In this document: one piece after another, positions 13,552 through 36,930 of the stretch
How positions within the stretch are numbered: the first letter of the stretch is position 1
How the letters are laid out: each line of letters starts with the position of its first letter
Assembly: GCA_005880395.1 (NCBI GenBank)
Contig: VBHQ01000078.1
Location: 1-41,045 of the forward strand
Origin: Chloroflexota bacterium
Lineage (GTDB): Bacteria; Chloroflexota; Dormibacteria; CF-121
Direction: 5' to 3'
DNA length: 41,045 nucleotides
The notes under the pieces: generated by a model
Seen by the model: only the letters and a program-made list of their open reading frames with translations
Told to the model about the DNA's origin: nothing
Databases searched by the model: none
Program-made: the position numbers and the translations under genes

Positions 13552-15067
13552 TCAGCCCATTGCGGCGTCAGGCTCGGCAGCGTCGGGCACCGGCACTTCG
13601 CCAAAAGCCGGTTGCGCCTGCCGGACTCGGGCCCGAAGTGGGACATCGGGCATGAACAGCGAGGCGATCAGCGCGAGCGCCACGAGCCCCACCGCCAGGA
13701 TGAACAGGTCGTGGAGCGTCAGGGCCAGCGCCTCGCGAATCGCATGCATGACCTGATCGAAGATCGGGATCGCCTGCGGCGGGAGCGTCGCCTTCGCCGC
13801 GGCGATCGCGGCGGGGTCGAACAGCGCATTGGGATTGCTGGGTGACGCCGTCGAGGGCAAGCTGAAACCCGCGGGCAGATGCAGGCTGGCTACCTGGGCC
13901 TGAATGGCCCCTGGCAGCCGCAGCGCCAGGAGCGATCCCAGGACCGCCGAGCTGACCGTGCCGCCGATGTTGCGCCAGAACTGAATCTGGCTCGTGCCGA
14001 CACCGAGAAAGCGCGCCGGTAATGCGCTCTGCACCGCATTGATGTAGAGCGGGAACGTGATCCCTAAACCGGCGCCCACGATGATGATGGCCACCGTGAG
14101 CGTGGCCTGCCACGTGGACGGCGATCAAGCCAAGCATCATCGGGGTCAGCAGTAGCCCGGAGTTCGTCACGCTGACGCCAAGCACGCCCTGGGTTTCCAG
14201 TGGGATGAAGATGATCATGCCGAACATCCCCAGCGCGCTGAAGAAGCCGACGATCATCGAGACGGCAAACGTGCGGTTCTTAAACAGCCTGAAGGGGACG
14301 ATCGGCTCCTTGACCCGCTGCTCGATCACGAAAAAGGCGATCAGCATCGCGGCCCCAAGCGCCAGCAGGCCGAGGACTTCGAACGACGTCCAGCCCTGGT
14401 CCTTGGCAACCGAGAGGGCGACGAGGATCGGGATGAGCCCGGCGGCCAACGCGGCCGAACCCCAGACATCGATGTCCCGCCAGGATGCCTTGGTCCGGAT
14501 GAAGGGTAGGAACCCGGCCACGATGATGACGCCGAGCAAGCCAACCGGCAGGTTGACGTAGAACACCCAGCGCCAGCCGAGGTTATCGGTGATGTAGCCG
14601 CCGAGGACCGGGCCGACGATCGACGAAAGCCCGAAAACCCCACCGAATAGGCCCTGCATCTTGGCGCGCTGAGCCGGCGGGAAGATGTCGGCCAGCACCG
14701 TGAAGGCCGACGCGAAGAGCATGCCGCCCATCAGCCCCTGGATGATTCGGAACACGATCAGCTGGTTCATGTCTTGCGAGATGCCACAGAGGGCCGAGGC
14801 AGCAACGAATCCGGCCATCCCGGCGATCAAAAATGGCTTACGGCCGAAGAGGTCGCCCATCTTGCCGGCGATCGGGACGACCACGGTCGAAGCGACCAGA
14901 TAGCCGGTGATCAGCCACGAGTACCGATCGAGGCCGTTGAGCTCCGAAACTATGCGCGGTAGCGCCGTGCCGACGATCGTCTGATCGAGCGCCGCCAGCA
15001 ACAGCGCCAGCATCACGCCGATGGTGGCGAACACCTTCACTCGAGTGGTCAATTCAGTTTGTGGCAT
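13552..15067 (-). pseudogene. DHA2-type multidrug MFS transporter A, internally deleted and frameshifted
   Basis: Proton-driven exporter of the 14-span DHA2 group. The N-terminal frame (ATG 15067) has DQTIVGTALPRIVSELNG (motif D1), GKMGDLFGRKPFLIAG (motif A) and GPVLGGYITDNLGWRWVFYVNLP (motif C) and runs through LLLTPMMLGLIAVHV. The rest lies in another frame, LTVAIIIVGAGLGITFPLYI to the stop at 13552. About 40 residues covering roughly one to two helices are missing at 14100-14115, inside the perfect inverted repeat CGTGGC-CT-GCCACG (14101-14114). The 5' end overlaps the MarR gene by 14 nt, so the regulator and transporter form one operon. Confidence 0.85.
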
Positions 15068-21631: not shown

Positions 21632-21713
21632 CCGATGCTCTAACACTCTCTAAGAGTTCAGCCTCGCGGTGATCGTTGAGGAGCGTGTAGGCTGTGCTTG
21701 GAGAGGGGAACCA

Positions 21714-23557
21714 GTGGCACTTAGACCGAACACGCGATCGCCGGCTGCCGCGCCGAAGCCGGGCGGCCCTGGGCGAACGCCAACACCCTTCTGGCGCAGC
21801 AGGGGTTTCTGGATTTACCTGGTCGTGCTGCTCGCGCTCAACTACCTGATTAGCGTCTTTTTCACGAGCGGCCCCGCCCGCGTGACGGTTCCCTACTCGA
21901 CCTTCATCCAGCAGGTGAATGCGGACAACGTCAAAGACATCAGCGCGCAGAGCAACTCGATCCAAGGCGACTTCAAAAAGTCCGTCTCTTATGGCAGCGC
22001 GAGTGGCACCACGTTCCAGACCGAACGGCCCGTGTTCGCCCAGGACAACCTCGAGAGTTTGCTGACCGCTCACAATGTCACGGTCAGCGCCCAGCCACCC
22101 GGCTCGGGGCAGTCGCCGCTGCTGACGCTGCTGGTGAGTTTCGGCCCGGCGCTCCTCCTGATCGGCGGGTTCTTGTACCTGAGCCGGCGCACCGCTGCGG
22201 CAGGCGCCGGCGGCATCCTCGGAGCCTTTGGCCGCAGCCAGGCAAAGCTCTACTCACCGGACTCGGGGCCGCGGACGACCTTCAACGACGTCGCCGGCAT
22301 CGATGAGGCGAAGGCCGACCTTGCCGAGGTGGTCGACTTCTTGAAGGAGCCGCAGAAGTATCAGAAATTGGGTGCGCAGATTCCGCATGGCATCCTCCTC
22401 GTCGGGCCACCGGGGACCGGCAAGACGCTGCTCGCGCGTGCGGTCGCGGGTGAGTCAAACCGGCCGTTCTTCAGCCTCTCGGCCTCGGAATTCGTCGAGG
22501 CGATTGTCGGCGTGGGAGCCTCCCGCGTCCGCGACCTGTTCGCCCAGGCGAAGGCCGCCGCACCCAGCATTATCTTTATCGACGAGCTGGATGCCATCGG
22601 ACGCTCGCGGGCATCCTCGGCGACCTTCGGCGCCAACGACGAGCGCGAGCAGACCCTCAACCAGATCCTGACCGAGATGGACGGCTTTACGCAAAACCAG
22701 AATGTCGTCGTCCTGGCGGCCACGAACCGGCCCGAGGTCCTCGATCCGGCGCTGTTGCGACCCGGGCGCTTTGACCGGCGCGTCACGGTGTCACCGCCCG
22801 ATCGAGTGGGTCGCGCCGCGATCCTCCGCATCCATACTCGCGGCGTCAGCATCGCCCCGGATGTCGACCTCGCTCGCTGCTCGGGCTGCGACGACCGATC
22901 ACGCTGGGGCAGGATGAGCGCCGCTTGATCGCCTATCACGAATCAGGGCACGCGCTGCTCGGCCTGCTGATTCCCGAGGCCGATCCGGTGAAGAAGCTCA
23001 CCATCGTGCCGCGGGGCCTCTCCCTCGGCGTGACGTTGAGCCAGCCGATCGACGACCGCTACAACTATCCCGAAGGCTACCTGCGCGGGCGCATCACGTC
23101 GGCACTCGGGGGACGCGCGGCGGAGGAAGTCGTCTACGGCAGCGTCACGACCGGGGCCGAGAACGACTTGATGCAGGTCAACCAGATCGCCCGCTCGATG
23201 GTCGTCCGTTGGGGCATGTCGCCACGACTGGGTCCGCTGAATCTCACCGAGCCAGGCGACAGCACGATCTCCCCGCAGATCAGCCCGGAAACGGCCAGTC
23301 TTGCCGACGAAGAAGAGCGACGGATCGTCAATGAGTGCTATCAGGAGGCGATCCGTTTGCTGCAGGAGAACCGCGACAGATTGGACCGCCTCACGGAAGC
23401 CGTTCTAAAAAAGGACACACTGGATCAGGACGAGATCTATGCCGCCACCGGGCTCAGCAAGCCCCGCAATCGCGCCCTCCTCGCGCCGGTCCTTCCCCAC
23501 AACGGCTCGAGCCGCGACCACGAGCTGGCTCGGCAAGCAACCGACGCCGAGCGCTAG
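21714..23557 (+). pseudogene. ftsH: FtsH ATP-dependent zinc metalloprotease, internally deleted and frameshifted
   Basis: Membrane AAA+ protease for quality control. From GTG 21714 (after GGAGAGGGGAA): helix [19 protein letters not shown], a periplasmic domain, second helix [20 protein letters not shown], then the AAA core with Walker A GPPGTGKT, Walker [13 protein letters not shown] and the second region of homology [20 protein letters not shown]. The frame then breaks after PDVDLA. The protease half resumes in another frame, [24 protein letters not shown], with the HESGH zinc motif and a complete C-terminus. The missing piece (GMxGADLANLxNEAAL region, about 45 residues) is the AAA helical subdomain, at 22866-22892. 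Convergent 4-nt overlap with the SARP-like gene. Confidence 0.88.
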
Positions 23558-24919: not shown

Positions 24920-25867
24920 TCAGGACCTGAGGGACTGACCTTCCCGGACTTTGAAAGCATCGAGGCATCCGGCGCTGCAGAAGAAGTCGGTTATGTCGCC
25001 CCTTTGCCACGTATGAATGGCGCCATCTACCTCGACCTGCATACCGCACACCGGATCGACCGCTACCTCGGGAAGAAGTCCGGCAGCGGCCGTATGGCTG
25101 AGACGACGCTCGGTCACGATCTCGGCCAGCGTCGCAAGCGCAATCTCCTCCTGGGAGCCGCCGACCGCGCTGTCGGCGGCACGACGCACGCGGTCGAGTC
25201 CGTTGGTCGCCCGGTCGGCGAGGATGGCAAGGACCGTCGCGGCCCGTCGGCGGCTCGCGATCAGACCGATGTATGGGGTCTTGTAGGCGAGCAGTGCCTG
25301 GATTGCGTCTTCGTCGTAATGGCCCATCGTCGCCACCACGCACCAGGTATTGCCGTCGGGTGGCGCGACCGAAAGATCGAGCGAATTGATCACGTGGTCG
25401 GCCTCTGGGAAATCGGCTGTTATGGCCCCGGGATGCACTGCCACTGTCGTAAACCCCATCGTGGCTCCCAGCCTGACCAGCGTTTGCGCTGCTGGCGTAT
25501 TGCCGGCAACAAGGAGCCGGGCGCGCGGCAGCTGGGGGTCGATGAAAACATCGAGCGACCCGGCGCTTGGACAGGTGCTCATGTGGCTGACCACGCCCGG
25601 CCGATGCTCCGGCGCCTCCTCCGGCGCGATGGTCACCAACCGTGGCTGGCCGTCGCCGAGCGCGATCAGGGCCTCCCGCCTTACGAGCGCCTCGGAGCAG
25701 CTGCCCCCAATCCAGCCCCATAATTTGCCGTCCGGCGTAACAAGCGCCTTGTCACCTGGGCGCGCTGACGTGGGCGGCTCGACCCGGACGACGGTCGCCA
25801 CGACGAAGCGCTGACCGCTCTGACGCAGCTGCACCGCCCGATCGAGGACCTCTTCAGCCAGGGACAT
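24920..25867 (-). CDS. XdhC/CoxI-family maturation factor fused to a C-terminal YHS domain
   Basis: 315 aa. Residues 1-110 are the XdhC_CoxI domain (FVVATVVRVEPPTSARPGDKALVTPDGKLWGWIGGSCSE), and residues 115-260 the Rossmann-like XdhC_C domain (ARLLVAGNTPAAQTLVRLGA, YIGLIASRRRAATVL). The tail, from about residue 267, is a YHS domain: VDPVCGMQVEVDGAIH, then FFCSAGCLDAFK, with three cysteines. XdhC proteins bind the molybdenum cofactor and help sulfurate it; YHS domains are often metal-related. It starts 3 nt after the form I coxL stop, so it should serve this enzyme. The XdhC homologue in the form II set (coxF) has no YHS domain. A copper-handling role is my inference. Confidence 0.88.
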   Translation of the reverse strand: MSLAEEVLDRAVQLRQSGQRFVVATVVRVEPPTSARPGDKALVTPDGKLWGWIGGSCSEALVRREALIALGDGQPRLVTIAPEEAPEHRPGVVSHMSTCPSAGSLDVFIDPQLPRARLLVAGNTPAAQTLVRLGATMGFTTVAVHPGAITADFPEADHVINSLDLSVAPPDGNTWCVVATMGHYDEDAIQALLAYKTPYIGLIASRRRAATVLAILADRATNGLDRVRRAADSAVGGSQEEIALATLAEIVTERRLSHTAAAGLLPEVAVDPVCGMQVEVDGAIHTWQRGDITDFFCSAGCLDAFKVREGQSLRS

Positions 25868-25870
25868 TGG

Positions 25871-28225
25871 TTACTCAGCGGCGCCGACTTCGTGCAATGC
25901 AGACCAGATCTTGTCGGATGTGACGGGCATGTCGATGTTCTTAATCCCTAGATGGGCGACCGCATCGATCACGGCATTGACGAACGCCGCGGGCGAACCC
26001 ACCGTGGCCGACTCGCCAATGCCTTTGGCGCCTATCGGATGGTGAGGCGACGGTGTGACAGTCTCATAGGTCTCGAAGTTGGGCGTCTCCCAACTCGTTG
26101 GCAAGAGGTAATCGGTGAAGTTCGAGCCGAGGCAGTTGCCCTCCTCGTCGAAGGTGATGAGCTGCATGAACGCGATGCCAAAGCCCTCGGCAAGGCCGCC
26201 ATGGATCTGACCCTCGACGATCATCGGATTGATCCGTACACCACAGTCGTCGACAGCAATCATGCGCCGTACTTTCGCCTGCCCCGTGCCGCGATCGATA
26301 TCGACCACCACCAGATAGGTGCCGAACGGATAGGTAAAGTTGGGCGGGTCGTAATATGTGACGCCCTCGAGTCCAGCCTCCATGCCATCGGGCAGGTTCG
26401 TATATGCCGCGAAGGCGATTTCCTGAATCGTCTTCGACTTCGATGGCGCTCCCTGGACAAAAAACTTGCCGTGGTCGAAATCGATATCTGCCTCGGAGGC
26501 TTCAAGTAGGTGGGCCGCGATCTTCTTGGCCTTGTCGCGCAGTTTGCGCGACACCATGGCGGTCGCGGCGCCGCCCACCGGAGTGCTGCGGCTCGCGTAC
26601 GTGCCGAGCCCGTACGGGGTGTTGTCGGTGTCCCCCTCCTGGACCATGACGTCCACGGCGGGGATGCCCAACTCCTCGGTTACGATCTGCGCGAACGTCG
26701 TCTCATGACCCTGGCCCTGGCTTTTCACACCGAGCTTGAGGATCGCTTTCCCAGTCGGGTGGACGCGTAGCTCGGCGGAGTCGAACATGCGCAGGCCTGC
26801 GATATCGAAATGCTTACCTGGCCCAGCCCCCACGACCTCGGTGAAGCTGGCGAGTCCGATGCCCATCAGCTCGCCACGCTTGCGTTTTTCCGCCTGCTCC
26901 TTGCGTAGCTCGTCATACCCGGCTTTTTCGAGCGCTAGCCGCAAGGCTTTCTCGTACTGGCCGCTGTCATAGTCGAAGCCCGTCGCCGACGTGTAGGGGA
27001 ACTGCTCCGGCCGGATGAAGTTCTTCGATCGCAGCTCCGCGGGATCCATCTTCAAGTCGATCGCTGCGGTTTCGACAAGCCGCTCGATGAGGTAAGAAGC
27101 CTCGGTGACGCGGAAGGAGCAGCGATAGGCCACGCCGCCGGGAGCCTTGTTGGTGTAGGCGCCGTCCGTCTCGACGTGCGCGGCCGGGATGTCATAGGAG
27201 CCTGTCACGATATGGAAGAGCCCGGCGCGGAACTTCGAGGGCTGGGCGTCCGCATAAAAGGCGCCGTTATCGCTCAGCATCTTGACGCGCAGGCCGAGCA
27301 TCCGACCGTCGTTGGTCACGGCTAGCTCGCCCTTCATGTGATAGTCGCGGGCAAAGCCGGTCGAGATGAGATTCTCGCTCCGGTCCTCCACCCACTTGAC
27401 GGGTTTCCCGAGTAAGAGCGACGCCGCCGTTGCGACGACATAACCCGGGTAGATCGGCACCTTGTTCCCAAATCCGCCGCCGATGTCCGGCGAGAGGATG
27501 CGGATCTTCTCCTCGGGGAGACCAGCGACGATCGCAAAGAGTGTCCGATGCGCATGCGGGGCCTGAGATGTCATATAGATGGTTGCGTTGCCTGTCACGG
27601 GACTGATGTCTGCGACAATGCCGCACGTCTCGACCGGTGACGGATGGCAGCGCGGATAGAACGTCTCCAGGCTAACCACGCGCTCCGCCCTGGCAAACGC
27701 CTGTTCCGTCTTGGCCTTGTCACCGGCTTCCCAGTGATAGATGTGGTTCGATGACTGCCCCTCCTTCTCGTCACGGACCAGCGGCGCCCCCGGTTCGAGC
27801 GCCTGGTAGGGATCCACGACTGCTGGAAGGACGTCGTAATCGACTTCGATCAGCTGCGCGGCATCACGGGCGACGTATGGATCTGTCGCAATGACGCACG
27901 CCACTTCCTGGCCCTGGAACCGAACCTTGTCCGTAGCGAGCACGGCCTGCGTGTCGCCGGACAGGGTCGGCATCCAGGCCAGCTTGTGCTGGGCTAGCAG
28001 GTCGCCGGTGACAACCGCCACTACACCGGGCACCGCCTGCGCCGCGTCGGCCTTGATCGACTTGATCCTGGCATGGGCGAACGGGCTGCGCAGGATCGAC
28101 ATATGCAGCATTCCCGGGAGCACAATGTCGTCGACGTAATTACCCTTGCCCTGGATAAAGCGGTCGTCTTCCTTGCGCTTGATGCTCTCGCCGATGAACC
28201 CCTTCAGCGGTGTTTCGGTGGCCAT
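25871..28225 (-). CDS. coxL: Aerobic CO dehydrogenase large subunit, form I
   Basis: Molybdenum hydroxylase subunit that oxidises CO to CO2 at a Mo-Cu centre. 784 aa (Oligotropha CoxL is 809). The active-site loop is AYRCSFR at residues 366-372, with C369 the copper-binding cysteine that defines true form I enzymes; the flanking text GGVAYRCSFRVTEASYLIER is highly conserved. Also present: PDIGGGFGNKV and KSQGQGHETTFAQ for cofactor binding, and GAKGIGES with the catalytic glutamate near the C-terminus. No damage is visible. It is last of the coxM-S-L order, the canonical form I arrangement, with gaps of 2-3 nt, so strongly coupled. It probably supports scavenging of low-level CO. Confidence 0.96.
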   Translation of the reverse strand: MATETPLKGFIGESIKRKEDDRFIQGKGNYVDDIVLPGMLHMSILRSPFAHARIKSIKADAAQAVPGVVAVVTGDLLAQHKLAWMPTLSGDTQAVLATDKVRFQGQEVACVIATDPYVARDAAQLIEVDYDVLPAVVDPYQALEPGAPLVRDEKEGQSSNHIYHWEAGDKAKTEQAFARAERVVSLETFYPRCHPSPVETCGIVADISPVTGNATIYMTSQAPHAHRTLFAIVAGLPEEKIRILSPDIGGGFGNKVPIYPGYVVATAASLLLGKPVKWVEDRSENLISTGFARDYHMKGELAVTNDGRMLGLRVKMLSDNGAFYADAQPSKFRAGLFHIVTGSYDIPAAHVETDGAYTNKAPGGVAYRCSFRVTEASYLIERLVETAAIDLKMDPAELRSKNFIRPEQFPYTSATGFDYDSGQYEKALRLALEKAGYDELRKEQAEKRKRGELMGIGLASFTEVVGAGPGKHFDIAGLRMFDSAELRVHPTGKAILKLGVKSQGQGHETTFAQIVTEELGIPAVDVMVQEGDTDNTPYGLGTYASRSTPVGGAATAMVSRKLRDKAKKIAAHLLEASEADIDFDHGKFFVQGAPSKSKTIQEIAFAAYTNLPDGMEAGLEGVTYYDPPNFTYPFGTYLVVVDIDRGTGQAKVRRMIAVDDCGVRINPMIVEGQIHGGLAEGFGIAFMQLITFDEEGNCLGSNFTDYLLPTSWETPNFETYETVTPSPHHPIGAKGIGESATVGSPAAFVNAVIDAVAHLGIKNIDMPVTSDKIWSALHEVGAAE

Positions 28226-28228
28226 GGC

Positions 28229-28735
28229 CTAGCTCCCTGCCCCGACCGGAATCGGAACGGCTGCCGACAGCTTCATCTGCGCGGACGCGGCGCGGACCGC
28301 CTTCACGATGTTGACGTAGCCCGTGCAGCGGCAAATGTTTCCCGAAAGCGCCCAGCGGATCTCTTCCTCATCCGGATCGGGATTGTCCGCGAGCAGCGCG
28401 AAGCTCGACATCATCATGCCGGGGGTGCAGAAGCCACACTGGAGACCGTGCTCCTGCTTGAATGCGGCCTGGATCGGATGCAGCTTGCCACCAGCGGCAA
28501 GGGCCTCGACCGACGTGAGCTGCCGGCCGTCGGCTTGGACGGCAAGGACGGCGCAGGATTTAACCGGGACGCCGTCCAGGAGGACGATACAGGCGCCGCA
28601 GTGCGACGTATCGCAGCCAATGTGGGTGCCCGTCAGACGCAGTCGTTCGCGGATGAAATGCACCAGCAGCAATCGGGGCTCGACATCGGCGGTGACCATT
28701 TCTCCATTGACCGTGAGGCTGATCGATCGTCCCAT
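28229..28735 (-). CDS. coxS: CO dehydrogenase small (iron-sulfur) subunit, form I
   Basis: 168 aa carrying two [2Fe-2S] clusters that pass electrons from the Mo site to FAD. The plant-ferredoxin-type cluster uses [16 protein letters not shown] and a later cysteine in [13 protein letters not shown]; the second cluster uses [11 protein letters not shown] and [14 protein letters not shown]. All eight cysteines are in place. [10 protein letters not shown] (with His) is the usual form I version; the other coxS in this window has Asn there. It lies between coxM and coxL with 2-nt and 3-nt gaps. Confidence 0.96.
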
Positions 28736-28737
28736 TG

Positions 28738-29610
28738 CTAGGCACCTCCCTGCGCCCGTTCGCGGGCCCGGCGCAATCCTCGCTCTGTAAAGACCCGAAC
28801 AACGTTGCGCTTGTAGTCAACCGATCCACGGTTATCGGCTTTGGGCTCTGCCGCGGCCGCGGCGAGCGCGGCAGCTTCTTTGATGGTGGCATCGTCGAGC
28901 GCGCGGCCCTTGAGCGCCGCCTCGGCCCGGTCGGCCTTTAAGTTCTGTGGGCCGACTGCCGTCAGGCCGATCCCGGCGCTCTTCACCTTGCCATCGTCCA
29001 TCTGCAGATGAACCGCCACCGCGACCGTGGCAAAGTCGCCGACCTTTCGCTCCAGCTTCAGATAGGAGCCTCCCTTCCGGCCATCGGCAGCTGGCACGCG
29101 GATCTCGACCAGAAGCTCATTCGACTTGAGCGCGCTGCTGAACGGACCCGAGAAGAAATCGCGGGCCCGGATCGTGCGGCTTCCCCTTTTCGAGCGAAGC
29201 ACAAACTCGGCGTCGAGCGCCAGCATCACCGAGCCCCAGTCGCCTGCCGGGTCGGCATGCGCCAGTGAGCCGCCTACGGTGCCCCGATTTCGGACGATCG
29301 GATCGGCGACCTGGCGAGCGGCCTCCGCAATCACGGCATACTTCGAGGCCAGCATGCCCGACCGCTCGGCGGCCTTGTGCCTGAAGAGCGGCCCAATGCG
29401 CAGGACGCCGTCGTGCTCATCGAGGAAGTCGAGTTCTGCGACCCGATTTACGTCGACGAGATGAGCCGGGCTCGCGAAGCGCAGCTTAAGCAGTGGAATC
29501 AGGCTCTGGCCGCCGGCCAGGACCTTGCTCTCATCGCCTAACGCGTCGAGAAGGTCGAGCGCCTCGTCCATCGTTTCAGGCGCGGAATATTCAAAGGGCG
29601 CTGGCAGCAT
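28738..29610 (-). CDS. coxM: CO dehydrogenase medium (FAD-binding) subunit, form I
   Basis: 290 aa flavoprotein subunit that hands electrons to the respiratory chain. The FAD pyrophosphate motifs are present: [16 protein letters not shown] (usually AGGHSLLP) and [17 protein letters not shown]. The C-terminal domain runs to the usual end ([19 protein letters not shown]). ATG 29610 is preceded by GAGGAGGGG at good spacing, better than the TTG at 29616. It is the first gene of the form I operon and has a strong promoter just upstream. Confidence 0.95.
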
Positions 29611-29658
29611 GAACAACCCCTCCTCGAGTTGATAGCGAACCTGTCGACCTGCGCCCTA

Positions 29659-29687
29659 ACCCTAGTCCGGCTGGAAAGGCTTGTCAA
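29659..29687 (-). promoter_or_regulatory. Promoter of the form I coxMSL operon
   Basis: On the minus strand TTGACA (29682-29687), 17-nt spacer, TAGGGT (29659-29664): a consensus -35 and a 4/6 -10. It lies 49 nt upstream of coxM in the 91-bp gap after the molybdopterin-binding gene, so the form I set can be transcribed alone. Confidence 0.65.
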
Positions 29688-29701
29688 TCACGGGATGATC
29701 A

Positions 29702-30627
29702 TCAACCATCGTCCTCGGTCCGCCCGCGGTAGGAGGGGAACCGGAACGCCATGTCCTTTGATAGCAGCCCACCGTGGCCAAGGCCGTTGAAGTCGGCGGC
29801 CGTGACCCGCACGCCCGTGAACAGGCGGGGAAGGATCAGGTCGAGCACCGTGGCCTTCGAGAACATACCGCAGGCTGCCACTCCGAAGATCGGCTTTCCG
29901 TCCAGGTAGGCGAGCCAGACCGCGCTGCCCGGATGGGCCGGGGCTCCACGCTTTTCGATGGTGGCGCCCACGCGTTCGAGCGCGACCAGCGTCGGATCCA
30001 GGGGATCCGTTGCATTGGCGCCGGCCGTGAGCAGCAGGTTGGCGTCGGCGAGCAACGCGGGGATGGCGCGTTGGACGGCATCAGTCTCATCGAGCACGTA
30101 GTGGATCTGGCGAAAGCCAGCACGCGCACGACACCGTGGTTGCCGACCAGGCGCTGCGCATCATGCAACCGAGCCACAGGGACAACGAAGGGCGTGACTT
30201 TCACCCCCGCAACCGTCTTGTCTTTGGAGACCAGCTGGCCATCGAAGAGGGTGAAAACCGAGACATCCTGGATGCTGTTCAGCGACTGCAGGGTCGGCAC
30301 GTCCACCTGGAAGATTCCGTTGATTGCCGCGCTCAGTCGCGCCTGGCTTTCAACCGGTTCATGCCGCGTGATCCCCGGCCCGGCCACGATCTGCGCCAGC
30401 GCTCGCGCCGCCTCGTCCTCGTGCAGATCGCCGGCTTCCATGCGGACCACGTGCAACTCATCGATCCCGCTCGCAGCGACGACCGGCCAATCGTTACGCG
30501 AAAGAATCCGACCCTTGTGCAGCAGCGGCCGGTGCTGGCCATTGGGGCCCATCAGCGTTTGCGCCAGGACTGCGCCGTCGATTGCCTCGGCGGTTAGCGC
30601 CGTTCCCCGAAGTGCCTCGGCTTTCAC
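29702..30627 (-). pseudogene. Molybdopterin-binding (MoeA/MogA-like) protein, internally deleted and frameshifted
   Basis: Probable molybdenum cofactor handling protein of the CODH cluster. The N-terminal frame (GTG 30627, GTGA overlap with coxF) has HRPLLHKGRILSRNDWPVVAASGIDELHVVRMEAGDLHEDEAA, a MoeA-N-like start, and reaches RLHDAQRLVGNHGVVRVLAF. The C-terminal frame resumes at IHYVLDETDAVQRAIPALLADANLLLTAGANATDPLDPTLVALERVGATIEKRG and CGMFSKATVLDLILPRLFTG, the MoCF-binding part. About 30-40 residues between are missing. The junction at 30107-30120 is a perfect hairpin CTGGC-GAAA-GCCAG. As written it cannot make a full protein, although the cofactor would be needed by both CODHs. Confidence 0.78.
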
Positions 30628-31628
30628 GCGCTGGTCGTGGCCATGGACGCGACCGGACCGGTCATCGGGCCGCCCCGCTTTCCGTGACGAACGGCAATCA
30701 TCTCGGCCAGGATCGCCAGCGCCGTTTCTTCAGCGGTTTGGGCGCCGAGGTCGAGGCCGATGGGTGCGTGCACCCGTTCGAGATCCGTCGGATTGATCCC
30801 GGCGGCGACCAGGCGGGCAACCCGTTCCCGGTGGGTTTTTCGACTTCCGATCGCTCCGATGTATCGCGGCCTTCCCTGGAGTGCCGCCGTCAATGTCGGG
30901 TCATCAAACTTTGGGTCGTGGGTGAGGATCACGATGTACGTCGAGCTGTCCATCGGCAGCTGCTTCAGAATCTCATCGGGCCAGGCATTGATCACCCGTC
31001 GCGCGTTTGGAAAGCGCGCGGCGTCGGCAAACTTCGACCGCGCGTCCACGATGGTCACGCGAAAGCTAAGCGCGGTGGCGAGCTCGGTCAGCGGGATCGC
31101 AACGTGCGAACCGCCGAAGATGTACAGCTCGGGGGGCCGGGGAAACGGCTCGAGGAAGGTGCCGTCGCGCCGCACCGGCGTCTCGTTCTCCAGCAGGTCA
31201 CGTAACTCGCCCTCATCGGGAGTCAGTAGCTCGCGGGCGCCAGGCGTCTTGGACACGTCGGTCTGCAGGACCACCGGCGTCTCGGCTTCGAGCGCGGCGA
31301 TCAGCTGCCGGTGCACTTTGGAGAGCGGCTCCACGAGGACGTCGAGCTCGCCACCGCAGCTCAATCCGACCGAAAAGGCCAGATCATCGCTGACGCCGTA
31401 GTGAAAAAGCTCCGCGGGTTTGCCGTTGAGGACGAGCTGTGCCTGCTCGAAGACCTCGCCTTCGAGACAGCCGCCACTGACTGACCCGGCGATCTTCCCC
31501 GACTTGCTGATCGCCATCCGCGAGCCGGCCGGCCTGGGGGCGCTGCCCCAGGTGCTGATCACCGTCGCCACCGCGACCGGATCATTGCTGGCCAGCCAAT
31601 CTTTGACGTTGGCCATGACATCGCGCAT
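30624..31628 (-). CDS. coxF: XdhC/CoxF-type molybdenum cofactor maturation factor
   Basis: 334 aa. The XdhC_CoxI domain (PVAVATVISTWGSAPRPAGSRMAISKSGKIAGSVSGGCLEG, VGLSCGGELDVLVEPL) is followed by an XdhC_C Rossmann domain (PELYIFGGSHVAIPLTELATALSF, YIGAIGSRKTHRERVARL, APIGLDLGAQTAEETALAILAEM). All expected motifs are there, and it ends without a YHS domain, unlike the XdhC protein after the form I coxL. It follows coxE by 33 nt and overlaps the molybdopterin-binding gene by 4 nt. In the CODH literature CoxF-type proteins act in cofactor insertion; the D-E-F order matches Oligotropha. Confidence 0.92.
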   Translation of the reverse strand: MRDVMANVKDWLASNDPVAVATVISTWGSAPRPAGSRMAISKSGKIAGSVSGGCLEGEVFEQAQLVLNGKPAELFHYGVSDDLAFSVGLSCGGELDVLVEPLSKVHRQLIAALEAETPVVLQTDVSKTPGARELLTPDEGELRDLLENETPVRRDGTFLEPFPRPPELYIFGGSHVAIPLTELATALSFRVTIVDARSKFADAARFPNARRVINAWPDEILKQLPMDSSTYIVILTHDPKFDDPTLTAALQGRPRYIGAIGSRKTHRERVARLVAAGINPTDLERVHAPIGLDLGAQTAEETALAILAEMIAVRHGKRGGPMTGPVASMATTSA

Positions 31629-31661: not shown

Positions 31662-32831
31662 TCAGGCGCTTGCGGGAAGGAGCGTTTGCCGGCGGAATGG
31701 GCGCCGTCCGGCGGTTTCGAGCAATAGGGCGCCGAGCGCCTCGAGATTCGCCAGGTTATGCGCTGGTAGGAAGTCATCCACGAATGGCAGCGCGGCCTGC
31801 AGACCGAGCGTAAGCGGCTCATAGCCGGGTGCCCCCATCAACGGGTTCATCCAGATGAGGCGGTGACACGAGCGCTGCAGGTGGGCAATGGCACGCCGCA
31901 TCTGATCGGCATCACCCCGATCCCAGCCGTCGCTGATGATCGCGACCGTGGCGCCATGGCCGAGCACCCGGCGGGCGTAACGCCGGTTGAAGGTCTCGAG
32001 CGCCTCGCCGATCCTCGTTCCGCCGGACCAGTCTTCGACCGTCGACGTGACACGGTTTAGCGCCGTGTCCACGTCGTGGTGCCGAAGCAGGCCGGTGATT
32101 CGGGTCAACCGCGTCGCAAAGACGAACGCCTCAACTCGCGTGCTTGCCGTCTTCAACGCGTAGGCAAAATTGAGAAGCAGCCGCGTATAGCGCTCCATGG
32201 AGCCGCTGATATCGCAGAGCAAGACCAGCGGCCGGGGTCGCAGGCTTGCGCTTTTCCACGAAAAAACCAGGAGCTCGCCGCCAAACCGCAGGCTGTGACG
32301 GAGCAAGCGCCGCATATCCAAACGGTCGGCGCCGCCTGGACGCATGCGACGCGACCGGGTCAGACCGGCCGGCAATCGCATCAGGCGGATCAAACGGCGG
32401 ACCTCCGCCATCTCGGCCTCATTGAGCGAATCGAAGTCCTTCTCGCGAAGGAGCTCGGCTCTCGAGTAACTCGCGATTTCCTGCTCCTCGGCGTCGGCGC
32501 CCATGTCCATGTCGTCCAGAACTTTCAGCTGGCGGCTCCCCAGGCTGATCGACCGGGCTTCGTGATCATCCATCGATCCGGCGACCGACGCCGGCTGCTC
32601 GAGCGGCCGCACACCGAGAAAGGCGCCAAGCGCCCGATCCAGGACCGGCAGCTCTTCCCGCCGCCGCGCGAAGTGGACGCGGACGACCGTCCGCAGGTCA
32701 TCGAACCGGCTCATCTCGATCAGGCTGAGCGCTCGGAGGAAGGGAAGCATCCGCGCCGGCCCGGCATCAAACCCTAGCCCGCGCAGGATGCGCCCGAAGT
32801 GCAGCCAGTTGCGGACCAGAATGCTGGTCAA
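31662..32831 (-). CDS. coxE: VWA-domain CODH maturation protein CoxE
   Basis: 389 aa, CoxE-like von Willebrand A protein that works with the AAA+ ATPase CoxD in assembling the Mo-Cu centre. The MIDAS metal site is seen as LVLLCDISGSMERYTRLLLNFAYAL (DxSxS), with a Thr in SGGTRIGEALETFNRRYA and Asp in ISDGWDRGDADQMRRAI. The N-terminal 170 residues are a helical charged region typical of the family. The start is TTG 32831, overlapping the coxD stop by 4 nt (TTGA), consistent with coupled synthesis of partners. Confidence 0.93.
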   Translation of the reverse strand: MTSILVRNWLHFGRILRGLGFDAGPARMLPFLRALSLIEMSRFDDLRTVVRVHFARRREELPVLDRALGAFLGVRPLEQPASVAGSMDDHEARSISLGSRQLKVLDDMDMGADAEEQEIASYSRAELLREKDFDSLNEAEMAEVRRLIRLMRLPAGLTRSRRMRPGGADRLDMRRLLRHSLRFGGELLVFSWKSASLRPRPLVLLCDISGSMERYTRLLLNFAYALKTASTRVEAFVFATRLTRITGLLRHHDVDTALNRVTSTVEDWSGGTRIGEALETFNRRYARRVLGHGATVAIISDGWDRGDADQMRRAIAHLQRSCHRLIWMNPLMGAPGYEPLTLGLQAALPFVDDFLPAHNLANLEALGALLLETAGRRPFRRQTLLPASA

Positions 32832-33724
32832 GCGAGAGCACGGGCCAGGAGCTCTCGAGAGCCGGTACCACGCAGTCGCTCAAGGTCCTCCTGGTACTTG
32901 ACGATCGATCCGAGCGTCGCCTGGACCGCCGCCTCATCGAGCTCGGTCTGGTCCAACGCCATCAGCGCCCGGGTCCAGTCGAGCGTTTCCGCAATGCCTG
33001 GGAGCTTGTACAGATCGAGGCGCCGGACACCACCGATGAAGGCGCTGACCTGGCGGGCCAGCTTTTGGGGCACATCGGGGATGCGCGTGTTGATGATTTC
33101 GAGCTCGCGATCGACCGACGGGTAATCGATCCAGAAATAGAGGCATCGGCGCTTGAGGGCGTCATGGATCTCGCGCGTTCGGTTCGACGTGATGATGACG
33201 GCAGGGGGCTTCACGGCCTTGATCGTGCCGATCTCGGGGATCGAGATCTGGTAATCCGACAGCAGCTCGAGAAGAAACGCCTCGAACTCGTCGTCGGCGC
33301 GGTCGATCTCATCGATCAGGAGAACGGGCGCGCTGCCGCCGTCCGTCTCGATCGCCTGCAGCAGCGGCCGCTTCACCAGGAACTGGGGACTGTAGATCTC
33401 GCGCTCGGCCTGTTCCCGATCCGCCCCTGTCGATTCGAGTAGCCGAATGTGCAGCATTTGTTTGGCATAGGCCCACTCGTACACCGCGGTGTTGACGTCG
33501 ATCCCTTCATAGCACTGCAATCGGATCAGGCGGGTGCTCAGGATTTCGGCGAGAACCTTGCCGACCTCGGTCTTCCCCACTCCGGCCTCGCCCTCGAGCA
33601 GGAGCGGCTTCTCGAGTGTCAGGGATAGAAATAGCGTCGTGGCCAGGCTGCGGTCCGCGACGTAGTGATGCTCGCGCAGCGCCCGCTCGACGTCCTCAAT
33701 CGTCGAGATGGGCAGGCCTTTCAT
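32828..33724 (-). CDS. coxD: MoxR-type AAA+ ATPase CoxD
   Basis: 298 aa. Walker A GEAGVGKTEVGKVLAE, Walker B VLLIDEIDRADDEFEAFLLELL, sensor I ITSNRTREIHDALKRRCLYFWIDYPS with the arginine finger. This is the MoxR group. CoxD in Oligotropha remodels apo-CODH so that the Mo-Cu site can be sulfurated and copper-loaded. ATG 33724 is preferred; the track start (33757) lies in the repeat-derived leader. There is no strong ribosome site at either, so coupling to coxM may have been lost when the upstream gene was truncated. Confidence 0.93.
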   Translation of the reverse strand: MKGLPISTIEDVERALREHHYVADRSLATTLFLSLTLEKPLLLEGEAGVGKTEVGKVLAEILSTRLIRLQCYEGIDVNTAVYEWAYAKQMLHIRLLESTGADREQAEREIYSPQFLVKRPLLQAIETDGGSAPVLLIDEIDRADDEFEAFLLELLSDYQISIPEIGTIKAVKPPAVIITSNRTREIHDALKRRCLYFWIDYPSVDRELEIINTRIPDVPQKLARQVSAFIGGVRRLDLYKLPGIAETLDWTRALMALDQTELDEAAVQATLGSIVKYQEDLERLRGTGSRELLARALA

Positions 33725-33751
33725 CAATGCCGATTGTAAGTTCGAGGCCCC

Positions 33752-33786
33752 CACCACCCTTACCCTCCCCCAGAGGGGGAGGGATT
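33752..33786 (+). repeat. Dispersed GC-rich hairpin repeat, copy 3
   Basis: CCACCACCCTTACCCTCCCCC-AGA-GGGGGAGGGA: a perfect 9-bp stem CCCTCCCCC/GGGGGAGGG. It lies exactly at the truncated 3' end of the form II coxM; the coxM stop TAA is made by the junction. Confidence 0.7.
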
Positions 33787-34582
33787 AGTCGGGTGAGCCA
33801 TTCAAATCCTGCTGTGGATTTGTGCCTTCCGCCGCCTTCTCGGCGGCGGCACGGATCTCATCGTCATGACCAGCTTTCCCGCGCAGGGCTTGCTCGACGG
33901 CTCGGGCGCGTAAGGGCGTGCTCCCCATGCCGGTGAGGCCGATCGCAACATTCTTGACTTCATGGCCGCTCAGGCTGACCTGGGCCGCCACGGCGACGAT
34001 CGCCCAGTCCTGCGAGCGGCGGCTGAACTTCAGGTACGTGCCCTTGCTTCCCTCCGGAGGTGTGACCAGCCGGATTTCGCGCAGGATCTCGTTCGGTTCG
34101 AGCGCCGAGGTGAAGGTGTCCACGAAGAAGTCTCGCGCCGGGATGGTGCGCTCTTCCCGAGGGCCGGCAATGATGAAGTCCGCCTCCAGCGCCAGCAGGC
34201 AGGTTGGAAAGTCGCCAAACGGGTCGGCGTGTGCCGCAGCACCACCGATGGTTCCACGGTTGCGAACCTGCGGATCACCAATCTGTGAGGCGGCGCTGCT
34301 GAGCAACGGCAACTTACGGCGGATGAGCTCCGAGAGCTGGATGTCGTGGTGCGTGGTCAACGCCCCGATCGCGATGTGGCCGTCCTCTTCACGAATGTAA
34401 TTGAGGTTGTTGATCCGGCCGATGTCGACCAGGAACGAGGGTGTCGACAGACGCAGCTTCATCAGCGGGATGAGGCTGTGGCCGCCGGCCAGGACCTTCG
34501 CCTCCTGGCCCCGCTGGACCAGCTCGGCGACCGCTTCGGGCAGGGTACGTGGCGCGACGTAGTCGAACGCTGCTGGAATCAT
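33785..34582 (-). CDS. coxM: CO dehydrogenase-type medium (FAD) subunit, form II, C-terminus truncated
   Basis: 265 aa flavin subunit. FAD motifs: VLAGGHSLIPLMKLRLS and RGTIGGAAAHADPFGDFP. The domain is normal until GTNPQQDLNGSPD, where homologues go on with Y-R-R and about 20-25 more residues. Here the codon after GAC starts with TA and becomes TAA because the repeat (ATCCCTCCCCC) follows. The loss therefore coincides with repeat copy 3. The missing tail is a small helix, so activity might survive. The start ATG 34582 overlaps the coxL stop by 4 nt. Confidence 0.9.
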   Translation of the reverse strand: MIPAAFDYVAPRTLPEAVAELVQRGQEAKVLAGGHSLIPLMKLRLSTPSFLVDIGRINNLNYIREEDGHIAIGALTTHHDIQLSELIRRKLPLLSSAASQIGDPQVRNRGTIGGAAAHADPFGDFPTCLLALEADFIIAGPREERTIPARDFFVDTFTSALEPNEILREIRLVTPPEGSKGTYLKFSRRSQDWAIVAVAAQVSLSGHEVKNVAIGLTGMGSTPLRARAVEQALRGKAGHDDEIRAAAEKAAEGTNPQQDLNGSPD

Positions 34583-36930
34583 CGATTTGACCCTCCATTG
34601 CGATGCATGAGGTGCCAGATCTTGTCGGGCGTCGCCGGCATGATCACGTCCTTGACACCGAACGGCGCGAGCGCGTCGACGATGGCATTGATCACGGTGA
34701 CGCTCGAGGCGATCGTGCCCGCTTCGCCAATGCCCTTGGTACCGAGCGGGTTGACGGGACTCGGCGTGACGGTTGCCGCCAGCTCGAACGATGGCACGTC
34801 AGGGGCCGCGGGAATCAGATAGTCGGTCAAGCTGCCGCTTCGCAGTTGGCCGGCCTCGTCATAGACGGCTTCCTCGAAGAGCGCCTGCCCGATCCCTTGC
34901 GCGATCCCACCATGCAGCTGGCCGTCGACCACCATCGGGTTGATGCGCGTGCCGCAGTCATCCACCGCAACGTAGCGCAGGATTTTCGTCGCGCCGGTGT
35001 CGGCATCGACTTCCACAACCGCGATGTGCGCTCCGAACGGCCAGACGAAGTTGGACGGGTCAAAGAAGGTTGTGGCTTCCAGGCCGCCTTCCATCCCCTT
35101 GGGTATCCGGTTGGTCTGGAACGCCGCCATAGCGATTTCCTGGATCGTGATCGATTTCGAGGGCGTCCCCTTCACAAATGCCTTGCCGTTCTCGTAGACG
35201 ACATCGGCTTCAGCCGCTTCGAGCAGATGCGCCGCGATCTTCTTCGCCTTCTCCTGCACCTTCATGGCGCTGAGGTGGACCGCATTCCCATCGAGTGCGG
35301 TGCTCCGGCTGCCGTAAGTGTTCATGCCCATCGGTCCGATCGCCGTGTCCCCGTGGACGACGTCGATGTCCTCGACCGGTATGCCCAGAACGTCGGACGC
35401 GACCTGGGCGTAGGTCGTCTCATGGCCCTGGCCGTGGGGCGAGCTGCCGATGATCACGGTCGCCTTGCCGGTGAAATGGAGATTGACGACCGACATGCCC
35501 CAGAGCGAGACGCCGGTGGCGGCCTGGGTCGCTGCCGCCGGACCCAGCCCGCAAATCTCGATGTAGGTGGCCAGCCCGATCCCGAGGTACTTCCCTTGCT
35601 TGCGCTTTTCGGCCTGCTCCTTGCGGAACCCTTTGTAATCGACCATCTCCAGCGCCTTGTCGAGCGTGATGGTGTAATCGCCGGAGTCATAGGTCAGCCC
35701 GAGCAAGGTCGTGAACGGTTGATCCTCCGCTCGAACGAAGTTCTTCCGGCGAACCTCGACCGGATCGAGGCCGGTCTCGCGGGCGATCAGGTCCATGACC
35801 CGCTCGATCAGATAGGTCGCTTCGGGCCGGCCCGCACCCCGGTAGGCATCCGTCGGGGTGCGGTTCGTGAAGACGCCGACAGACCGCCCGTCGAATGCCT
35901 TCATCTTGTAGGCGCCCTGGGCGACCAGCACGCCGAGCACCTGGAACGTGCCGAACTGACTGCAGTAGGCTCCCAGGTCCAGCCACTGGGTCGGCCGGAT
36001 CCCCAGTAGCGTGCCGTCTTTTTTCGCCGCGATCTCGACGTCCCAAATTTGCGACCGCCCATGATGGGTGGCTTTGACGTTCTCGTTGCGGTCCTCGATC
36101 CATTTGACCGGCCGTCCGATACGCCGTGACGCGAGCGCCGTCAGGATCTCCTCCGGGTAAACACGGATCTTCGATCCGAATCCCCCGCCGACCTCGGGCG
36201 CCACGACGCGGACATTGCTTTCGGAAATGCCGAGAATGACCGCGAGCCAGACCTTGACGAAATGCGGGATCTGCGTTGAGGTATAAACCGTCAACTTGTT
36301 CGTGAATGGCTTGTAGTCCGCCAGCACCCCACGGCCTTCAACCGCCACGGGAATCAGCCGCTGCTGGATCAGCCGCTGTTTGATCTTGACGTCTGCCTCG
36401 CGGAAGGCCGCTTCGATATCGCCTGAGGCGAATTTCACGTCGAATGACAGGTTGCTGCCAATTTCCTCGTGCAACACCGGGGCGTCCTTTTCGATCGCCT
36501 TTTCGATATCCAGCACCGGCGACAGCGACTCATAACGAATATCGATCCGCTCGCCCGCGTCTTCGGCGGCCGCGCGGCTGGTCGCCAGCACGATGGCCAC
36601 CGGTTCACCGGCGTAGAGAACTTTGTCGACCGCGATTGGATAGTGATTCGGATACTTCTTGTCGGGAACAAAGCACACCGTTACTGGCAGTGGAGCGTTG
36701 AATTCCGATTTCAGGTCCTTCCCCGTGAAGACCGCGAGCACACCATCGGCTTCCCTGGCTCGCCCAGTCTCGATACTGAGGATCCGGGCGTGCGCCTCAG
36801 TCGAGCGCACCACATGCATGTGGACGACGGCGGTCTGCGGGATGTCATCGACATAACTCCCGGTGCCGGTCACCAGTCGTGGATCCTCGCGACGCTTGAT
36901 GGACGCGCCGATCATCTGGGATACGGCCAT
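34579..36930 (-). CDS. coxL: CO dehydrogenase-type large subunit, form II
   Basis: 783-aa molybdenum hydroxylase. The active-site loop is AYRGAGR (residues 362-368) in place of AYRCSFR, the hallmark of form II, which lacks the copper-binding cysteine. Other Mo-cofactor motifs are intact (PEVGGGFGSKIRVYPEE, SPHGQGHETTYAQ, GTKGIGEAGT). The substrate of form II enzymes is disputed: weak CO oxidation in some, other aldehyde or purine-like substrates possible. Strong ribosome site GGAGGAGGGACAG before ATG 36930. Order S-L-M is the typical form II arrangement. Confidence 0.95.
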   Translation of the reverse strand: MAVSQMIGASIKRREDPRLVTGTGSYVDDIPQTAVVHMHVVRSTEAHARILSIETGRAREADGVLAVFTGKDLKSEFNAPLPVTVCFVPDKKYPNHYPIAVDKVLYAGEPVAIVLATSRAAAEDAGERIDIRYESLSPVLDIEKAIEKDAPVLHEEIGSNLSFDVKFASGDIEAAFREADVKIKQRLIQQRLIPVAVEGRGVLADYKPFTNKLTVYTSTQIPHFVKVWLAVILGISESNVRVVAPEVGGGFGSKIRVYPEEILTALASRRIGRPVKWIEDRNENVKATHHGRSQIWDVEIAAKKDGTLLGIRPTQWLDLGAYCSQFGTFQVLGVLVAQGAYKMKAFDGRSVGVFTNRTPTDAYRGAGRPEATYLIERVMDLIARETGLDPVEVRRKNFVRAEDQPFTTLLGLTYDSGDYTITLDKALEMVDYKGFRKEQAEKRKQGKYLGIGLATYIEICGLGPAAATQAATGVSLWGMSVVNLHFTGKATVIIGSSPHGQGHETTYAQVASDVLGIPVEDIDVVHGDTAIGPMGMNTYGSRSTALDGNAVHLSAMKVQEKAKKIAAHLLEAAEADVVYENGKAFVKGTPSKSITIQEIAMAAFQTNRIPKGMEGGLEATTFFDPSNFVWPFGAHIAVVEVDADTGATKILRYVAVDDCGTRINPMVVDGQLHGGIAQGIGQALFEEAVYDEAGQLRSGSLTDYLIPAAPDVPSFELAATVTPSPVNPLGTKGIGEAGTIASSVTVINAIVDALAPFGVKDVIMPATPDKIWHLMHRNGGSNR

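Follow-up and report, generated by a model that had tools for sequence, protein, structure and literature searches.

A C-terminal YHS domain on CoxF as a candidate copper module of form I carbon monoxide dehydrogenase

On balance, bacteria with form I carbon monoxide dehydrogenase (CODH) take large amounts of CO out of the atmosphere (PMC6794299). The published copper-delivery model for the Mo-S-Cu site of this enzyme rests on one alphaproteobacterium, whose CoxF is tail-less. In the 41,045-nucleotide stretch of a Chloroflexota genome analyzed here (the window), the XdhC-family protein encoded next to form I coxL ends in a YHS domain. We regard the tail as a testable clue to copper delivery into CO dehydrogenase.

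The gene, coxF, follows form I coxL after 3 bp (Table 1), and a form II-type set (coxS, coxL, coxM, coxD, coxE and XdhC) lies upstream on the same strand, at 30.6-37.5 kb. The original prediction held that the XdhC protein directly after form I coxL ends in a YHS domain and that the XdhC protein of the form II set has none. The former was confirmed by the ORF, Pfam, the AlphaFold model and the gene spacing, and the latter by negative results of both Pfam and the YHS profile for the ORF at 30624-31628. The interval that had been predicted, 24920-25160, does hold the tail, but it spans residues ~237-315, while the YHS domain proper lies at 24926-25066.

Table 1. Positions of the form I and form II sets and of the CoxF features in the window.
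Feature	Position	Strand	Basis
coxF, XdhC-family maturation factor with C-terminal YHS, 315 aa	24920..25867	-	ORF, Pfam, tree with Oligotropha CoxF
YHS domain, residues 268-314	24926..25066	-	Pfam and profile matches, ligand conservation, model pLDDT
Proposed ligand Asp271	25055-25057	-	YHS tail of window CoxF
Proposed ligand Cys274	25046-25048	-	YHS tail of window CoxF
Proposed ligand Cys297	24977-24979	-	YHS tail of window CoxF
Proposed ligand Cys301	24965-24967	-	YHS tail of window CoxF
CxSxG loop of CoxF, Cys99-Gly103, CPSAG	25559..25573	-	Alignment of 81 cores; stands where other XdhCs have CGG
coxL, form I CO dehydrogenase large subunit, AYRCSFR	25871..28225	-	TIGR02416 1259.7 bits, cut-off 991; motif
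coxS, small (2Fe-2S) subunit, form I set	28229..28735	-	Pfam Fer2, Fer2_2
coxM, medium (FAD) subunit, form I set	28738..29616	-	Pfam FAD_binding_5, CO_deh_flav_C
Ordinary XdhC of form II set, CGG loop, without YHS	30624..31628	-	Pfam, negative YHS profile, loop
coxE-like VWA protein	31662..32831	-	Pfam VWA_CoxE; genome search
coxD-like MoxR AAA ATPase	32828..33757	-	Pfam AAA_5
Form II-type coxL, AYRGAGR, comparison enzyme	34579..36930	-	TIGR02416 716 bits, below cut-off; motif

Pfam assigned residues 15-80 of the window CoxF to XdhC_CoxI (E = 6.5e-20) and residues 118-250 to XdhC_C, a Rossmann domain (E = 2.7e-16), both over the cut-off, while residues 270-306 matched YHS with E = 6.4e-5 and 23.3 bits, under the gathering score of 30.3. 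Such a low score, together with apparent frameshifts elsewhere on the contig, would be expected if the YHS call were spurious or a neighboring ORF had been fused by error. However, the same architecture is found in 159 distinct tails from many phyla, and 36 of the 44 aligned relatives match Pfam YHS independently at E <= 0.001 (best 3e-16). The fold is also predicted with confidence (mean pLDDT of the AlphaFold model 93.6 overall and 90-96 at residues 271-310 of the tail, with dips to 76 at the linker, residues 261-270, and also at the last five residues). All four YHS ligands (Asp and three Cys) are present in the window CoxF, and the CoxF-tail profile matched its tail with an i-E of 9e-18, which is circular because this tail is one of the profile seeds. 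The domain was accepted despite its weak Pfam score because of the matches of the relatives, the recurrence across lineages and the confident fold, so that sequence comparison and structure prediction together indicate a true YHS domain. Chance or annotation artefact was rejected since the architecture recurs in many phyla, and the probability left for an error of this kind is negligible.

In a tree of XdhC cores from which the YHS part was left off, the window protein fell in one clade (SH-aLRT 97) with other XdhCs linked to CODH, Oligotropha CoxF among them, and ordinary XdhC and CoxI stood apart (SH-aLRT 99); the tree was made by a quick method and many of its inner branches are unsupported. 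Cys57 and Cys99 are invariant in all 81 aligned XdhC-family cores, among which the CxSxG loop is common to CoxF proteins and CGG or similar is found in ordinary XdhCs. The CPSAG loop of the window protein aligns to the position of MCPSHGTM in Oligotropha CoxF, a stretch named as a putative Cu site by Pelzmann et al. (PMC4240915). On these comparisons the window gene is an orthologue of CoxF, and 'XdhC of unknown role' was rejected because the window protein groups as CoxF. The CoxF of Oligotropha (Afipia) carboxidovorans, encoded on plasmid pHCG3, likewise belongs to the XdhC family, lies in a form I cox cluster and falls in the same clade (34% identity over the core, with the CxSxG loop shared as CPSHG), but it is 280 aa long, has no YHS and stands in the order L-D-E-F, whereas in the window F comes directly after L. 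Ordinary Moco chaperones of the XdhC/CoxI/PaoD type (for example the Rv0376c homologue, 2we7/2we8, and BH1974, 3on5) have the same two-domain core as the window CoxF (Foldseek E = 1e-13 to 6e-17, with TM-scores of only 0.4-0.6; profile matches with E = 2e-39 and 2e-24) and share Cys57 and Cys99, but they differ in having a CGG loop, no YHS and, in the loci examined, copper-free Mo hydroxylases as partners. Just outside the CoxF clade branch CoxF-like paralogues that have a CGG loop and lack YHS (L031:3071-3997, L063:8615-9484, L067:9207-10034, L253:5540-6418, L254:2396-3277), three of them in loci that have YHS-CoxF too.

That an XdhC-like protein supplies copper has already been published, for CoxF: coxE and coxF mutants of Oligotropha make CODH without copper, and CoxF was proposed as the copper supplier of the enzyme (PMC4240915). 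Each of the two mutants loses both proteins, so their phenotypes are inseparable, and the maturation steps act on the folded apoenzyme (PMC4240915). The phytase and Cu motif that the same study gives for Oligotropha CoxF is speculative, and YHS is not mentioned there (PMC4240915). The copper-delivery idea had been put forward as little described; this is true of the fusion itself, which is unreported in the literature searched, but not of CoxF as copper source, which had been both proposed and supported by mutants (PMC4240915). The literature searched, which mostly excluded subscription papers, contains nothing that links 'YHS domain' to XdhC or 'TRASH domain' to carbon monoxide dehydrogenase, and this is weak evidence of novelty. 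The window protein is CoxF in a domain variant that is undescribed as far as this search goes and apparently predominant.

A search seeded with YHS-bearing CoxF, which favors YHS by design, gave 80 loci from Chloroflexota, Armatimonadota, Actinomycetota, Halobacteria, Thermoplasmata, Nitrososphaerales, SAR324, Acidobacteriota, Bacillota, Gemmatimonadota, Bacteroidota, Eremiobacterota and Pseudomonadota. YHS was present in 76 of them, and all 68 YHS-XdhC loci with a readable CoxL loop had form I CoxL (among the other YHS-bearing loci, the loop was unreadable in five and CoxL was not in the stretch in three). To offset this bias, a second set of loci was chosen by CoxL alone. Here YHS was found in 83 of the 97 complete CoxF proteins beside form I (Chloroflexota 59/59, Actinomycetota 20/20, Halobacteria 2/2, Pseudomonadota 2/16, with 14/16 lacking it). 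YHS was absent from all 22 XdhC ORFs of 43 non-form-I loci, some of these ORFs being pieces of split genes, and from all 30 other XdhC ORFs inside form I loci. The Fisher values for the association of YHS with form I (7e-15 and 1e-18) ignore shared ancestry. The survey of XdhC-YHS fusions against AYxCSFR CoxL that was proposed with the original prediction bore it out, and the opposite pattern, fusions mainly beside form II or other Mo enzymes, was not seen in the loci examined: in searches that were not exhaustive, no YHS-XdhC stood beside other Mo enzymes in 301 Chloroflexota genomes, in 40 Chloroflexota and 3 haloarchaeal non-form-I loci or among the plasmid-collection matches listed. In one Chloroflexota genome (G087) YHS-CoxF occurs without form I CoxL, but the contig starts at the CoxF gene. 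In genome G192, what looked like a YHS match, with three stops, proved to be an ordinary XdhC. Within the sampled set, the restriction of YHS to form I loci is a strong association at the sequence level. Judged from the same loci, CoxF usually carries YHS in the sampled Chloroflexota, Actinomycetota and Halobacteria; the fusion is not peculiar to this genome and is present in several more phyla, and the YHS architecture appears to be the commonest CoxF form outside Pseudomonadota.

YHS had also been proposed as a mark of the copper-dependent set, and this holds for its restriction to form I but not for a requirement by form I. Because Oligotropha CoxF and 14 of the 16 complete Pseudomonadota CoxF proteins are without YHS, the domain is, as far as gene content tells, dispensable in some settings and not universally required for form I CODH. 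No separate YHS protein that could stand in for it was found within YHS-less clusters in the loci examined. CoxF is missing near some form I CoxLs, mostly at contig ends. Two loci, L207 (Pseudomonadota G676) and L249 (Actinomycetota G801), have form I CoxL and long flanks but no recognizable CoxF; in L207, an ORF for a MobA-like nucleotidyltransferase follows CoxE at the expected position of CoxF.

The XdhC-core tree requires four changes of YHS state, which a single early gain followed by three losses would explain most simply; its supported branches alone force fewer than four. With about four changes, the pattern therefore reflects one deep, long-kept association and not many independent ones, and the link between YHS and form I may rest on one ancestral gain followed by inheritance. 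So few changes would also be in keeping with a tail that serves sulfur, another metal (Zn, Fe), structure or docking, and whose link to form I came down by inheritance. Some TRASH/YHS domains are Zn-finger-like. XdhC-type cores hold and shield sulfurated Moco, and XdhC acts together with a cysteine desulfurase in Moco sulfuration (PMC2997495); Cys-rich tails could carry persulfide. The conservation of the ligands over the 159 distinct YHS tails (Asp 97%; the three Cys 99, 99 and 100%), in a tail that otherwise varies apart from the Gly, Met and Phe of the motifs (96-99%), argues against a purely structural part; the profile was seeded from Cys-pattern tails, which favors conservation somewhat, though detected tails needed no pattern match. 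Copper-free relatives of CODH (xanthine oxidase family) employ the sulfido-Mo ligand as well. These relatives need the ligand too, yet the tail is absent from the XdhC ORFs of non-form-I loci counted above, and because they combine a sulfido-Mo ligand with XdhC lacking the tail, the tail tracks copper rather than sulfur. The module is seen only with the copper enzyme, and therefore copper is the best explanation of the tail; a role unrelated to copper is unlikely. The clear exception to ligand conservation is the CoxF on a plasmid of Deinococcus AJ005 (L006:7992-9053), which has two of the four ligands replaced (SPVDGE...FTCANC) and adjoins a CoxL annotated as CODH.

YHS-less CoxF proteins of Comamonadaceae and other Burkholderiales mostly have another Cys-containing C-terminus, SCCGG, SCCGS, SCCHG or SCCAG, sometimes twice. 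This dicysteine tail was found in 12 of the 15 genomes in which the search for such proteins found a CoxF (L267-L275, L278, L279, L281; L276 and L278 are one genome), a fraction biased upward since the query was a CC-tailed CoxF; two of the others have YHS (L277, L280) and one has neither tail (L282). The dicysteine tail also occurs in YHS-less Burkholderiales CoxF at L076, L087 and L096. Among 263 XdhC-family ORFs, CC near the C-terminus was confined to CoxF, counting the linker of the Natronorubrum YHS protein. The SCCGG-type tail apparently gives the C-terminus of CoxF a further thiol module, independent of YHS, which strengthens the case for a metal role of this end. Oligotropha-type CoxF has neither YHS nor a dicysteine tail. 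In Natronorubrum CoxF (L005, L043, L044), SCCGG stands in the linker ahead of YHS.

What is known of other YHS domains bears on whether the tail gives copper or senses it. A YHS domain renders the Mycobacterium phlei adenylyl cyclase copper-responsive, specifically for copper, with one Asp and three Cys proposed as ligands (PMC4626032). This domain resembles the CoxF tail in its C-terminal position, its short linker and its Asp and three Cys, but it is on a signaling enzyme, as a sensor rather than for delivery (PMC4626032). According to the same source, metals other than copper, or no metal at all, may be bound by YHS domains (toluene-4-hydroxylase, as cited in PMC4626032), and copper binding by the YHS domains of Ag/Cu P-type ATPases is undemonstrated (PMC4626032). 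The closest plasmid YHS relatives of the CoxF tail among the matches listed are those of Ag/Cu P-type ATPases (SilP and relatives, 39-45% identity), which differ in lying within a membrane efflux pump. The plasmid YHS matches listed are mostly SilP and other heavy-metal P-type ATPases by annotation (E-values 0.004-1, from a Klebsiella-dominated collection), and this kinship gives only a hint of a metal role for the CoxF tail. The cyclase work, the sole functional YHS experiment found, revealed allosteric copper activation of the attached enzyme (PMC4626032), and YHS loss in Pseudomonadota fits an optional regulatory role; the YHS of CoxF might in this way be a copper sensor whose occupancy switches CoxF on, which would let CODH mature only in the presence of copper, with the copper of CODH coming from elsewhere. 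However, no enzymatic output of CoxF is known that could be switched, CODH contains no copper when coxF/coxE are lost (PMC4240915), and the SCCGG replacement tails resemble simple metal binders more than allosteric domains. A sensor in place of a donor is quite unlikely.

The reading that we prefer is copper donation: the window gene is coxF of the Mo-Cu CODH, and its YHS tail probably binds Cu(I) for delivery to the sulfurated Mo site. The XdhC core would attach to apo-CODH that has already folded, and would handle or shield its sulfurated Mo site, and the YHS domain would bind one Cu(I) via Asp271, Cys274, Cys297 and Cys301. Next, Cu(I) would reach the Mo-S site and the loop Cys of CoxL, probably via Cys99 in the CxSxG loop that is found only in CoxF. 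CoxD and CoxE, encoded here only in the form II set, may drive this step for the form I enzyme. The coxE-like gene of the form II set is the sole CoxE match in the genome of the window (79% complete; genome search), and just 9 of the 65 form I regions of Chloroflexota contain coxD or coxE, so sharing between the two sets is plausible. Cu(I) binding by the YHS domain, the Cys99 relay and the sharing of CoxD and CoxE are steps that we infer. In Burkholderiales the SCCGG dicysteine tail seems to replace YHS, and in the Oligotropha type the loop alone would remain. More broadly, and only tentatively, CoxF could be a modular copper chaperone, a single protein that both shields the sulfurated Mo site and puts in Cu(I). 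Its C-terminal thiol module would be exchangeable: YHS in most of the phyla sampled, SCCGG in Burkholderiales. This module would have been acquired at an early stage of form I CODH evolution, and Pseudomonadota, among them the only model organism studied, would later have replaced or lost it.

Should a defined metal domain prove to be present on most CoxFs, tractable actinobacteria would allow direct tests of the copper donor, and the YHS tail and CxSxG loop would be sequence markers for copper-dependent CODH.

Three other genes in the window appear to have irregular reading frames. The gene at 29650-30627 (-), beside the form II XdhC, has no Pfam match and looks frameshifted by three-frame translation, as does an MFS transporter gene at 13568-15067 (-). 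An ftsH-like gene at 21669-23557 (+) is split over two frames around 22900, and the stretch before AYHESGHALLG is apparently missing, which might be caused by a frameshift, a small deletion or an assembly error.
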